This document shows positions 46,739 through 49,621 of a stretch of 64,000 nucleotides of DNA, in pieces. Position numbers and translations under genes: made by a program. The notes beneath the pieces were generated by a model, which was given only the letters and a program-made list of their open reading frames with translations, ran no database searches and was not told the origin of the DNA. Source of the DNA: Defluviimonas aquaemixtae (GTDB lineage Bacteria > Pseudomonadota > Alphaproteobacteria > Rhodobacterales > Rhodobacteraceae); NCBI RefSeq assembly GCF_900302475.1, contig NZ_OMOQ01000001.1, positions 1,302,001-1,366,000 of the forward strand, given 5' to 3'. Position 1 is the first letter of the stretch, and every line of letters begins with the position of its first letter.

Positions 46739-47098
46739 CCCCCCTGCCCCCTCACGGCGTCGTCGAAAGCGGCACTGAAGATCGCAGCTCGTGACGCCGT
46801 CGGCAGGTTCGGATGAGACCTCATCCTATGGTGCCGCTGCGTTCGCGCCTATCGCGGCGCTGGCACGACGGTGCGACACTGTCCCCTCTTGCCTCCGGCC
46901 TCGGCCCTTGCTTATCAGGATGTCAGCAACGGGAAGACCTCTCGACAGAGGAGGCCCGTCATGGCACAAGTGAGTTGGGGATGGTGCTATGATATCGCTG
47001 TCACGAAAGGGCATAGCCCTTGCCGCTTGGCCGGCAAGGGCCTACAGGCAACGGCGGTGTGCGCCCGGCATCCTGCGTCTTGGCGTGGGAGTGTTCGC
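46739..47098. other. Leader and intergenic region upstream of the LuxR-type gene
   Basis: 360 bp with no supported gene. Short frames lack recognisable sequence. The distal part contains a strong hairpin (47016-47041) and is probably the 5' leader of the luxR-type gene. No clear promoter consensus could be placed with confidence. Confidence 0.5.
47016..47041 (+). promoter_or_regulatory. Perfect ten-bp hairpin in the luxR-type leader
   Basis: GCCCTTGCCG and CGGCAAGGGC form a perfect stem with a six-base loop, 57 bases upstream of the ATG. No U-run follows, so it is not a simple terminator. It could control mRNA stability or small-RNA binding. Confidence 0.45.
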
Positions 47099-47878
47099 AT
47101 GAGCGCATCCAGACAGGCCGGCGAAAACCTCATCAGCCATCTCGAGCTTGTGATCGAGGCCATGAGCATCGAAGAGCTCTGGTCGCTGCACTTGAAAAAG
47201 ATGGCGTCCTACGGATTTGACCGCCTTCTCTACGGCTTCACGCGGTTCCGGACGCCGAATTCGTTCGGCAGTGCCGACGACCTGCTCGTTCTATCCAATC
47301 ACGAAGAGAAATATCTCGACGAATTCGTGAAAAGCGGCATCTACAATCATGCGCCTATGGTCAAGTGGGCGGCCGTCAATGAAGGCGCCTGTTCCTGGCG
47401 GCTGATCGAAGATGTGCTGGCCACCGGCACCGTGACCGCGACCGAGCGGCGGATAATCGAGATGAATCACCGCTACAACATCCGTGCAGGCTATTCGATC
47501 AGCTTTCGCGACGTGTCCGTGCGCGCGAAGGGCGCGATCGGGCTGTGCGCGCAAAAGGACATGCGGCAGCACGAAGTCGACTCGATGTGGGACGACAAGG
47601 GACGCGAGATCACGGTGATCAACAACGTCACCCATCTCAAGATAACGTCAATGCCCTTCGCGTCGGCACGCCGGTCGCTGACACCGCGTCAGCGAGAGGC
47701 GCTCGAATGGGTCGGCGACGGCAAGACGATGCAGGACATTGCCACCATCATGGGGCTGACGCCGGCAACGGTCGAGAAGCATCTCCGGCTCGCGCGCGAG
47801 GCGCTGGATGTGGAGACGACAGCGCAGGCAGTGCTGAAGGCATCCTTCCAGAACCAGATCTTCGTGGTTCCTGGTTAA
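47099..47878 (+). CDS. LuxR-family regulator with autoinducer-binding-like domain (solo)
   Basis: A 259-residue regulator: N-terminal autoinducer-binding-like domain (about 20-170) and C-terminal LuxR helix-turn-helix (SLTPRQREALEWVGDGKTMQDIATIMGLTPATVEKHLRLAREAL). No luxI synthase gene is in the window, so it is a solo. In the ligand pocket the block usually reading DPVV appears as APMVKWA, so the acyl-homoserine-lactone-contacting Asp seems to be Ala. It may therefore sense another ligand or none. The ATG at 47099 is chosen because the family sequence begins there. It is followed by a 757-bp region with two structured repeats. Confidence 0.88.
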   Translation: MSASRQAGENLISHLELVIEAMSIEELWSLHLKKMASYGFDRLLYGFTRFRTPNSFGSADDLLVLSNHEEKYLDEFVKSGIYNHAPMVKWAAVNEGACSWRLIEDVLATGTVTATERRIIEMNHRYNIRAGYSISFRDVSVRAKGAIGLCAQKDMRQHEVDSMWDDKGREITVINNVTHLKITSMPFASARRSLTPRQREALEWVGDGKTMQDIATIMGLTPATVEKHLRLAREALDVETTAQAVLKASFQNQIFVVPG

Positions 47879-47898
47879 AGTCCGATTCGCGACGATTC

Positions 47899-47915
47899 GT
47901 TTACGCTAGGTAAAC
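47899..47915. promoter_or_regulatory. Dyad just after the luxR-type gene, possible operator
   Basis: GTTTAC-GCTAG-GTAAAC is a perfect six-base inverted repeat with a five-base centre, 21 bp past the stop codon and about 130 bp before the first structured element. A second dyad, AATCG-TTA-CGATT, is at 47971-47983. Neither has a U-tract, so operators are more likely than terminators. The binding protein is unknown. Confidence 0.35.
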
Positions 47916-48041
47916 AATGTGTCCCTTATCAGAGTGTAATTCGGCAACTTTGTTCGCAATTTCAGCCTTAAATCGTTACGATTCAACCGGGTAAGGATTC
48001 CCATACTTCCCTTCCCTTGCGTAAAGCTGCAATATGCACTG

Positions 48042-48257
48042 GTTCCGTGAGTGGTGGCATTGGCCAGGAACAGCGCCCCGGACTAGCCCGTAATTTGCGG
48101 GGGAATGGGGGGCCCGGGAAACCGGACGCTGGGCCTGTTGGGTGAATAGTCCGCCTGGCAGGTCTAGCACCAGAGACGCGCCCTGTCCTCATCCCCAACA
48201 GGTGCTGGCGCGACATAGGGCGGTACGGTCCACGAGATCGTGCCGCCCTTATCTTTT
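48042..48257 (+). ncRNA. Structured RNA candidate 1 (conserved 87-bp core plus terminator)
   Basis: The core at 48042-48128 is about 90% identical by hand alignment to 48355-48444. It folds as GTTCC...GGAAC with an almost invariant loop, CCCG...CGGG with a variable loop, and CCGG-GAAA-CCGG with a GNRA-type tetraloop. A long stem CCTGTTGGG (48134-48142) with CCCAACAGG (48194-48202) follows. A strong terminator closes the unit: ten-bp stem 48218-48227/48239-48248 (one T-G pair), 11-base loop, then TTATCTTTT. No coding frame is shared by the copies with conserved start and stop. Transcription is inferred. Confidence 0.45.
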
Positions 48258-48354
48258 GTCCGCACTCTCACACCGCCGGTCCGGCCGGCGGCTTATATGG
48301 CTCCCTCCTGATTTCGATCAATCGCGCCAGAGGCGAATCGATCTTACATGAGGC

Positions 48355-48568
48355 GTTCCATGAGTGGTGGCATTGGCCAGGAACGGCGCCCCGGACCAGC
48401 CCGACGAATTGCGGGGGAATGGGGGGCTCCGGGAAAACCGGACGGCGGGCGTGCCGAAACATTGCCTTCGGCGAGCCCGCAACATGGCGCGGTAAGACTT
48501 GTCCCTCAGGGGACGACGCGCAGCTTCAGGGGCGGCGCGCATCGTTGCAGAGCGCGCCGCCCCTTTCT
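48355..48568 (+). ncRNA. Structured RNA candidate 2 (paralogue of candidate 1)
   Basis: This unit repeats the core of candidate 1 (48355-48444) with the same three hairpins; differences fall in loops or linkers. Its own middle part differs: GCGGGC...GCCCGC enclosing GCCGAA...TTCGGC (about 48446-48480), then GTCCC-TCAG-GGGAC (48501-48514). It ends in a twelve-bp terminator stem (48529-48540/48552-48563) with an 11-base loop and TTTCTG. Same orientation and similar length to unit 1 suggest tandem duplicated small-RNA genes. Confidence 0.45.
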
Positions 48569-48584
48569 GACCGAAGCCCGAACG

Positions 48585-48612
48585 AAAAAGGGGGCCGGTC
48601 TAGCCGGCCCCC
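48585..48612 (-). terminator. Intrinsic terminator of the rpsB-tsf operon
   Basis: On the minus strand a perfect nine-bp stem (GGGGGCCGG/CCGGCCCCC, loop CTAGA) is followed by five T residues, 24 bases past the tsf stop codon. It is a textbook Rho-independent terminator for tsf and meets the opposing unit-2 terminator almost back to back. Confidence 0.85.
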
Positions 48613-48635
48613 TCGCACGGTAACTTCCAAACCGG

Positions 48636-49511
48636 TCAGGCGCCGCGTGTCTTCGCGACCTCGGCGGCGAAATCTTCCTTCTCTTTCTCGATCCCCTCGC
48701 CCACGGCCATACGGGCGAAACCGGTGATCTCGACGCCCGCGTCCTTGGCGGCCTGCGCCACGGTGACATCGGGGTTGATCACGAATTTCTGGCCGAGAAG
48801 CGTGATCTCTTCGAAGAACTTCGCCATGCGCCCGACGATCATCTTCTCGATGACCGCCTCGGGCTTGCCCGACTCGCGCGCCTGCTCGGTCAGCACGGAC
48901 TTCTCACGCTCGACGAGCGCAGGGTCGAGGTCCTTTTCGCTGAGCGAGGCCGGCGAAGTGGCGGCGACATGCATCGCGATCTGCTTGCCGATGCCGTTGT
49001 CAGCGCCCTTGAGGCCCACGAGCACGCCGATCTTGCCCAGTCCGGGGGCAGCAGCATTGTGCACGTAGGAAACGACCGAGTCGCCCTCGACCGCCACCAT
49101 GCGGCGCAGCGTCATGTTCTCGCCAATCTTGGCGATCGCGGCGGTCAGCGCCTCGTCCACGGTCTTGCCGTCGACCGTTGTCGATTTCAACGCCTCGATA
49201 TCCGACACGCCGAGCGCGGCTTCGGTTATCGACGCCACCATCGACTGGAACTCCGCGTTCTTCGCGACGAAGTCGGTTTCCGAGTTGACCTCGACGGCCA
49301 CGCCTTTTCCGCCCTTGACGGCAACGCCGACGAGGCCCTCGGCTGCGACGCGGCCCGATTTCTTCGCTGCCTTGGCGAGGCCCTTCGTGCGCAGCCAGTC
49401 CTGCGCCGCCTCCATATCGCCGTTCGTTTCGGTCAGCGCCTTCTTGGCGTCCATCATCCCTGCGCCGGTCGACTCGCGCAGCTCTTTCACCATTTGTGCG
49501 GTGATCGCCAT
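48636..49511 (-). CDS. tsf: Elongation factor Ts
   Basis: A 291-residue guanine-nucleotide exchange factor for EF-Tu. It starts with [44 protein letters not shown] (UBA-like domain) and has the core motif [13 protein letters not shown]. The C-terminal dimer-like repeats are of normal length. It has AAGGAG upstream and lies about 110 bp after rpsB, in the universal rpsB-tsf order. A strong terminator follows. Confidence 0.97.
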
Positions 49512-49621
49512 GTCTGGCTCTCCTTCGAAAATGTCCAACTGGGTCGGGCGGGGATTAGCCCCGCCAGATGAGTGTCCTGAGACAGCGGGGCCGGGCAAGT
49601 ACCCGTTACCCGCTGAACCGG

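Follow-up and report, generated by a model that had tools for sequence, protein, structure and literature searches.

A structured small RNA beside a LuxR-type solo regulator in Rhodobacteraceae, probably activated by that regulator and duplicated with a possibly rewired twin in Defluviimonas aquaemixtae

LuxR solos are, to our knowledge, common in this group of bacteria and mostly without known targets. In the window, i.e., the whole 64,000-nucleotide stretch of Defluviimonas aquaemixtae DNA analysed here, such a solo gene is followed by two similar sequence cores and then by the convergent tsf gene (Table 1), which raises the question of what the two cores are and what they have to do with the regulator. 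The original prediction took them for twin small RNAs linked to the luxR-type gene. We propose that the solo activates a dedicated structured small RNA (sRNA) acting in trans, and that the sRNA gene has been duplicated here with a rewired twin; our probability for this reading is roughly 0.7. The similarity of the two cores was borne out, as they form direct repeats (48042-48134 and 48355-48450) with 89% identity over the 96-base query. The RNA is located downstream of luxR on the same strand, at a median spacing of about 130 bp. The start of tsf was taken at the methionine of MAITAQ within its open frame. The gap from the unit 2 terminator to the tsf stop holds a terminator-like hairpin for tsf on the minus strand (48588-48614), and unit 2 and the convergent tsf terminate in separate hairpins. 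No tRNA was found in the window.

Table 1. Positions of the genes, predicted RNA units and signals at the locus, numbered from the first letter of the window
Feature	Position	Strand	Basis or remark
LuxR-type solo regulator gene	47099..47878	+	Pfam PF03472 (autoinducer-binding) and PF00196 (GerE helix-turn-helix), above cut-off
Conserved palindromic box GGTAAGGATTCCCATACTTCC, proposed LuxR operator	47990..48010	+	at -52 of unit 1
Proposed -10 hexamer CAATAT, unit 1	48030..48035	+	puts inferred +1 at core G 48042
Unit 1 RNA gene, predicted, about 215 nt	48042..48257	+	fold, terminator, model R1 score
Unit 1 helix P1, GUUCC...GGAAC, loop GUGAGUGGUGGC	48042..48071	+	other complementary arms in several divergent relatives
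Unit 1 helix P2 (covarying) around hairpin P3, AUU in loop	48073..48113	+	
Unit 1 hairpin P4, CCGG-GAAA-CCGG	48114..48125	+	
Unit 1 exposed CAUCCCCA loop, proposed pairing seed	48190..48197	+	C-rich
Unit 1 intrinsic terminator	48217..48257	+	terminator scan
FNR-like site CTGAT-N4-ATCAA	48308..48321	+	-47 of unit 2, replaces LuxR box
Unit 2 RNA gene, predicted, about 214 nt, without CAUCCCCA loop	48355..48568	+	fold, model R1 score
Unit 2 intrinsic terminator, 13 bp stem, 11-base loop	48528..48567	+	inverted repeat
Open frame with tsf (elongation factor Ts)	48636..49598	-	convergent right flank, outside the system

The original prediction had named scattered copies of the core as the sign of a REP-type repeat, and these did not appear. 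A search of the whole genome with the core pattern, allowing up to 3 mismatches, gave exactly two matches, both at this locus, which ruled out a non-transcribed repeat, and elsewhere the element occupies a syntenic locus. BLAST with the core was positive in 22 of 61 genomes, our own included; the same-genus genomes without a match, G010 and G015, carry luxR and have neither box nor core. With the P1 pattern, at least 118 loci were retrieved from the named genome collection, among them loci of Rhodobacter capsulatus, Rhodovulum, Ruegeria, Leisingera, Salipiger, Thalassovita and others. Among the 118 matches listed, a luxR homologue lies immediately upstream on the same strand in 111, with 3 offering no room to tell and 4 without luxR, and tsf lies downstream and convergent in 104, with 10 offering no room and 4 without tsf. 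Three of the records, labelled Nocardioides (L071), Enemella (L089) and Sphingomonadales (L047, a MAG), carry the Rhodobacteraceae locus; these assemblies are probably mislabelled, or their content suggests contamination.

A wider search with the covariance model R2 matched 185 of the 292 genomes of the order, in 84 of 112 genera, figures that overestimate absence within the family, as the large R2 searches filter strictly. One match per genome was found in 183 of the positive genomes and two matches in the other two. In a class-wide sample of 289 genomes, R2 matched 3, all of the same family, and the matches listed for the class sample include one genome of that family and none of the rest. 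Among the 48 genomes with luxR and without an R2 match, 18 were checked: 14 have the box, with a diverged and still recognisable RNA-like sequence 52 bases past it, and 4 have neither box nor core. No match to the element was found in the plasmid collection. Two remote second copies of the RNA, both away from luxR and tsf, were observed, one with the box in Tateyamaria (L120, 2743-2900) and one without it in Tranquillimonas (L056, 3137-3240).

We regard it as near certain that each unit is a structured RNA gene. When folded as 221-nt sequences, units 1 and 2 gave z scores of -3.8 and -5.1, respectively, and for neither was any of 200 dinucleotide shuffles as stable. Model R1, whose source alignment includes both units, scored them at 114.6 bits and 100.5 bits. 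The RNA architecture consists of P1, P2 enclosing P3, P4, P5, P6 with a C-rich loop, and the terminator. The earlier claim that the differences between the cores are confined to the loops holds roughly for the two copies, and the structural evidence comes instead from other genomes. In an alignment-free test, 59 of 136 units had a P2 helix score of at least 15, compared to 1.8 in mononucleotide shuffles, and the P2 arms comprised 89 distinct sequences among 101. RNAalifold on the plain 137-row MAFFT alignment (A2) returned six pairs only and zero covariation, because MAFFT misaligns the variable arms; the alignment-free helix test and a model-fitted alignment (A3, 100 matches) were therefore used. 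In A3, 95.4% of the cells were paired, double-change cells numbered 331 compared to 98 in shuffles, and covariation was 0.348, compared to 0.03-0.05 after sliding the partners. Since A3 is biased towards its own structure, the alignment-free P2 test weighs more. The covariance-model search and comparative alignment that had been suggested with the original prediction gave matches across the family and covarying helices, and the conserved, covarying secondary structure that marks an independent bacterial sRNA gene is present.

The invariance of P1 in L029-L146 is built in by the pattern that retrieved those loci. Among the best model-found loci, P1 is present in 28 of 29, and it is absent from the divergent ones. 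In L207-L224, chiefly of genera g42 and g77, luxR and the box are kept and the P1 sequence is changed; several of the P1 variants are other complementary arms, and the P2/P3-like part remains. Three divergent or short forms were folded, of which two were more stable than nearly all shuffles and one, L219 (z -1.7, 12 of 200 shuffles as good), was not clearly better.

A small protein gene would account for the GTG or ATG that stands after GUUCC in 133 of the 137 units, a count that is partly owing to the choice of pattern. The reading frame from the P1 start codon is not conserved, ranging from 4 to 106 residues, and on this ground the small protein gene was rejected. With the compensatory helix changes, the two copies in this genome and a single syntenic place in all but two of the model-positive genomes also against them, we consider a protein gene and a duplicated, non-transcribed REP-type repeat extremely improbable.

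Each core was predicted to have a terminator of its own with an 11-base loop. The terminators were recovered for both units, and the loop size was right for unit 2, which shows 13 perfect pairs and a modest T-run. For unit 1, the terminator scan gave 14 pairs and a 5-base loop at 48217-48249 followed by TATCTTTTGT; there, an 11-base loop is possible only with the inner pairs open. The scan permits loops of 3-8 bases only, and the unit 2 terminator is thus unlisted by it. Across the family, terminator-like hairpins were found in 113 of 137 units, compared to 17 in shuffles, with a median end near +210.

A 21-bp palindromic box (consensus GGTaaGGaatnCCttACTttC, also written GGTAAGGAATCCnTTACTTTC) starts 52-53 bp before nearly every RNA. 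Its weight matrix score reached at least 6 in 129 of 134 promoters, a score with a chance of 0.2% in a 35-base stretch, and relative to the core G the best position was -52 in 102 promoters and -53 in 24. An A at -11 and a T at -7 were conserved over the 134 promoters; therefore, the core G is most likely the +1, and the box centre would be near -43. Binding sites in class-II LuxR activation are centred near -42 to -44. A sigma-70 consensus scan of 47600-48900 found no promoter. Judged by the box, the two conserved bases and the hairpin at its end, the gene appears to have its own promoter and its own intrinsic terminator, as expected of an sRNA gene.

The RNA lies a short distance past luxR on the same strand, and it could also be a structured 3' untranslated region of the luxR mRNA, either a cis element or a processed 3'-UTR RNA without its own promoter. 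This reading is opposed by the near-fixed spacing of the conserved box and A-11/T-7 from the RNA, by the L120 copy, which has the box away from luxR, and by the second units of tandem loci, which sit about 300 bp further on than the first units with an FNR-type site of their own. We hold it to be quite improbable.

The original prediction had drawn the link to luxR through a perfect dyad (GTTTACGCTAGGTAAAC) at 47899-47915. The dyad exists, and as it was absent there in the 22 other loci scanned, it was rejected as a conserved operator; the link runs instead through the palindrome 52 bp before the RNA. The twin small RNAs themselves were supported as RNA genes by covariation, promoter geometry and terminators. 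The box at 47990-48010, the FNR-like site at 48308-48321, the C-rich loop at 48190-48197 and the conservation across the family go beyond that prediction. In part of the family (about 35 of 137 units), the stretch from box to -10 also contains a dyad of the form TTAC-N4-7-GTAA with its start at -31 or -30, which the one at 47899 resembles.

Of the 118 loci listed, 111 have luxR next to the RNA, and the box was present in 109 of these; of the 4 loci that lack luxR there, 1 has the box (Fisher 1.6e-4). Of the four, L046 and L085 are box-less and come from genomes in which this LuxR was matched only weakly and in the HTH region; the box-less L056 is the second RNA copy of Tranquillimonas, whose luxR-linked copy (L145) has the box; and L120, a second copy as well, has the box, with luxR elsewhere in that genome. 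Over the 292 genomes, 174 have luxR and RNA, 48 luxR only, 11 RNA only and 59 neither, at cut-offs of E 1e-40 for luxR and 1e-3 for the RNA and with counts uncorrected for relatedness. In 7 of the 11 RNA-only genomes, all of genus g46, a below-cut-off luxR with 30-38% identity lies directly upstream, and all seven have the box at -52 or -53 with scores of 9.4 to 24.1. Three others (two of g116 and one of g99) have tsf in place and neither luxR nor box, with box scores of -19 and lower, and at L200 the box is present and no luxR lies within the 1.5 kb stretch. Of the 11 model-found genomes, all 7 with a diverged luxR thus have the box, as does 1 of the 4 others; one of these four, from g116, is the genome of L085 again. 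When the two sets were pooled with L085 counted once, 7 loci had no luxR next to the RNA, and 5 of them lacked the box, compared to 2 of the 118 loci that had luxR there.

In G226 (L232 1501-2900, contig C31), a second luxR with 45% identity has a box to itself and, on the opposite strand, a further copy of the RNA with P1 changed to GUUUC/GAAAC, and here regulator and RNA were apparently co-duplicated. In genus g46 (L198-L206), the diverged luxR (30-38%) is accompanied in part by a shifted GGTAGGGTTTTCCACCGTTTC-type box; it is possible that regulator and operator changed together.

Two loci, L066 and L146, have luxR adjoining the RNA and no recognisable box, two have the box and no luxR in the stretch, and no box was found upstream of luxR itself. 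These observations would fit a palindrome bound by another factor or an alternative sigma factor, with luxR as a syntenic bystander. They are opposed by the pooled counts, by the box that accompanies the second luxR-RNA pair in G226, and by the box beside luxR in 14 of the 18 checked genomes where the RNA escaped the model; hence, we rate the bystander as rather unlikely. Because of the position of the box and the co-loss of box and luxR, we propose that the LuxR-type solo likely activates the adjacent sRNA. In this genome, the only zero-mismatch box site is the unit 1 promoter, and the search for further LuxR targets gave 26 sites at up to 3 mismatches, compared to 28 for the reversed control pattern, so that no target other than this one stood out.

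The regulator has the autoinducer-binding and GerE domains by which LuxR-type proteins are recognised in Pfam. AHL receptors have a conserved Asp before a Pro in the ligand pocket. When the pocket column was aligned through QscR and CviR, the 105 homologues showed 89 Ala, 13 Gly, 2 Ser and 1 Thr, and none had Asp; therefore, the ligand of this regulator is probably not an AHL. No luxI was noticed among the open frames read between 43000 and 53000.

Feedback of the RNA on luxR was also considered. About 122 bases before luxR, the window carries TTGGGGATG, which is complementary to the RNA loop; of 115 luxR 5' regions, 11 contain GGGGATG, compared to 4.1 in shuffles. Since GGGGATG stands just before a TATGA-like -10 in the genus, we take it for part of a promoter and make no claim of pairing. 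The region before luxR (46940-46995) shows CTCGACAG, CATGGCA, GGGGAT and TATGA in this order in most of 16 aligned genus loci, and in L004-L022 and the window this set has the appearance of a promoter preceded by an unusual element.

Most genomes with the RNA have one gene for it, and the twin pair of the original prediction is a feature of a few: tandem copies occur in 3 of the 20 same-genus genomes with a match, our own included (G000, G016 and G018), and G004 has two matches on separate contigs. FNR-controlled promoters have TTGAT-N4-ATCAA near -41.5. At each of the three tandem loci, the LuxR box is missing before the second copy, and an FNR-like site that matches 8-9 of the 10 consensus positions stands at exactly -47; none of the other 134 promoters has such a site. 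This genome encodes an FNR-like protein with a CGDCPIRYTAVC Cys motif and ETVSR, motifs which we take to mark such a protein. FNR control of unit 2 is plausible on these grounds. As the ATCCCC loop is also lost or changed in all three second copies, we infer from the sequences that the gene was duplicated and that the copy then took on another signal and another target specificity.

How the RNA might act is suggested by this C-rich loop. ATCCCC was found in 109 of 137 units, compared to about 8 expected in shuffles; its mean unpaired probability was 0.85, compared to 0.44 for random places, and it was enclosed by a helix in 97%. It is missing in 28 of the 137 units, including the three second units and Rhodobacter capsulatus, whose RNA is a shorter form without the loop, and the loop is therefore not essential everywhere. 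Small RNAs whose targets are G-rich ribosome-binding regions typically expose C-rich loops for pairing. Pairing in trans through the CAUCCCCA loop with G-rich mRNA stretches is plausible, and it is the least certain step of our proposal.

The RNA might instead titrate a protein without base pairing, as a CsrA/RsmA-like sponge or by 6S-like binding of the polymerase. P1 with its strongly conserved loop and the GGA motifs would suit a protein-binding site. On the other side, a search of 25 genomes gave no member of the CsrA family, whereas the same search was positive in 3 of 14 named control genomes; a sponge of the CsrB or RsmY type, which needs CsrA in the host, is therefore unlikely. A 6S function is made unlikely by a separate 6S RNA gene in this genome (G000 C1:2202732), and the 6S RNA model RF00013 had no match at this locus. 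We judge titration unlikely, although less so than the other alternatives.

The preferred reading, activation of a trans-acting sRNA by the solo, can be put as follows. Each unit would encode a non-coding multi-hairpin sRNA with an intrinsic terminator at its end and a length of about 190-220 nt, and its gene would be a Rhodobacteraceae gene that usually lies between the LuxR-type solo and tsf. As the position and the co-loss suggest, the solo would bind the palindrome centred near -43 and activate the RNA promoter, and the RNA would act in trans, most likely by pairing of its CAUCCCCA loop with G-rich mRNA stretches. Here the gene would have been duplicated, the second copy having an FNR-type site at -47, a changed loop and no LuxR box. 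Unit 1 would then respond to the ligand of the solo and unit 2 to low oxygen, and the two would reach different targets. A wider statement, on which we see the odds as even, is that the one conserved family-wide target of a non-AHL LuxR solo is the adjacent multi-hairpin riboregulator, losses of the box going with losses of luxR and duplication of luxR with duplication of the RNA, and that in one genus a copy came under the oxygen sensor FNR and its targeting loop was altered, two sister RNAs thereby integrating oxygen with a chemical signal. The box, promoter geometry and RNA would give this solo a directly testable output in cultured genera, Rhodobacter, Ruegeria and Leisingera among them, and the tandem copies would clearly illustrate how a duplicated sRNA can change its signal through exchange of its promoter.

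The prediction that no named RNA family fits was confirmed, as no Rfam 15 family reached the gathering threshold in the 64 kb window. At E<=5, two weak below-threshold matches were obtained, near the unit 2 and tsf terminators, and the loci of seven relatives gave no Rfam match. This is a structured RNA family without a description in Rfam 15. No description of a sRNA linked to luxR and tsf was found in the open-access literature searched, and the transcript may already be contained, unnamed, in the published sRNA catalogues of R. capsulatus, R. pomeroyi or Paracoccus.

Among known sRNAs of the Rhodobacteraceae, CcsR1-4, the CUCCUCCC-motif sRNAs of Rhodobacter, also have C-rich exposed loops and tandem copies, and they lie next to a DUF1127 gene. 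The RNA described here differs from them in that the CUCCUCCC motif is all but lacking (only 1 of 137 units has CTCCTCC within its first 230 bases), its own motif is CAUCCCCA, and its neighbour is luxR. With the classical lux box of V. fischeri luxI, the palindrome shares a centre near -42 to -44, as in class-II activation, whereas its sequence, GTAAGG-N4-CCTTAC, is unlike the classical box as we know it. StsR of Rhodobacter sphaeroides is an sRNA of the same bacterial family that is under RpoHI/RpoHII; by its description it stands apart, and the main text of that paper is without the words LuxR or tsf (PMC8307010). A 188-nt RNA of Ruegeria pomeroyi, riboswitch82, is listed at SPO1974 (LuxR-family, autoinducer-binding) and marked Antisense in PMC4809877. 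In the Ruegeria profundi copy (L070), we counted 194 nt, a similar length, and both RNAs are tied to a LuxR-type gene; riboswitch82 may or may not be this RNA. A parallel for the regulation is VtlR, which, according to PMC7486931, directly controls sRNA genes in Brucella (abcR2) and Agrobacterium. In both systems, a conserved alphaproteobacterial transcription factor would directly control sRNA genes and act on many genes indirectly. By description, VtlR is a LysR-type protein with three sRNAs and other targets in Agrobacterium, whereas the regulator here is a LuxR-type solo, and the one perfect box in this genome is that of the adjacent RNA.
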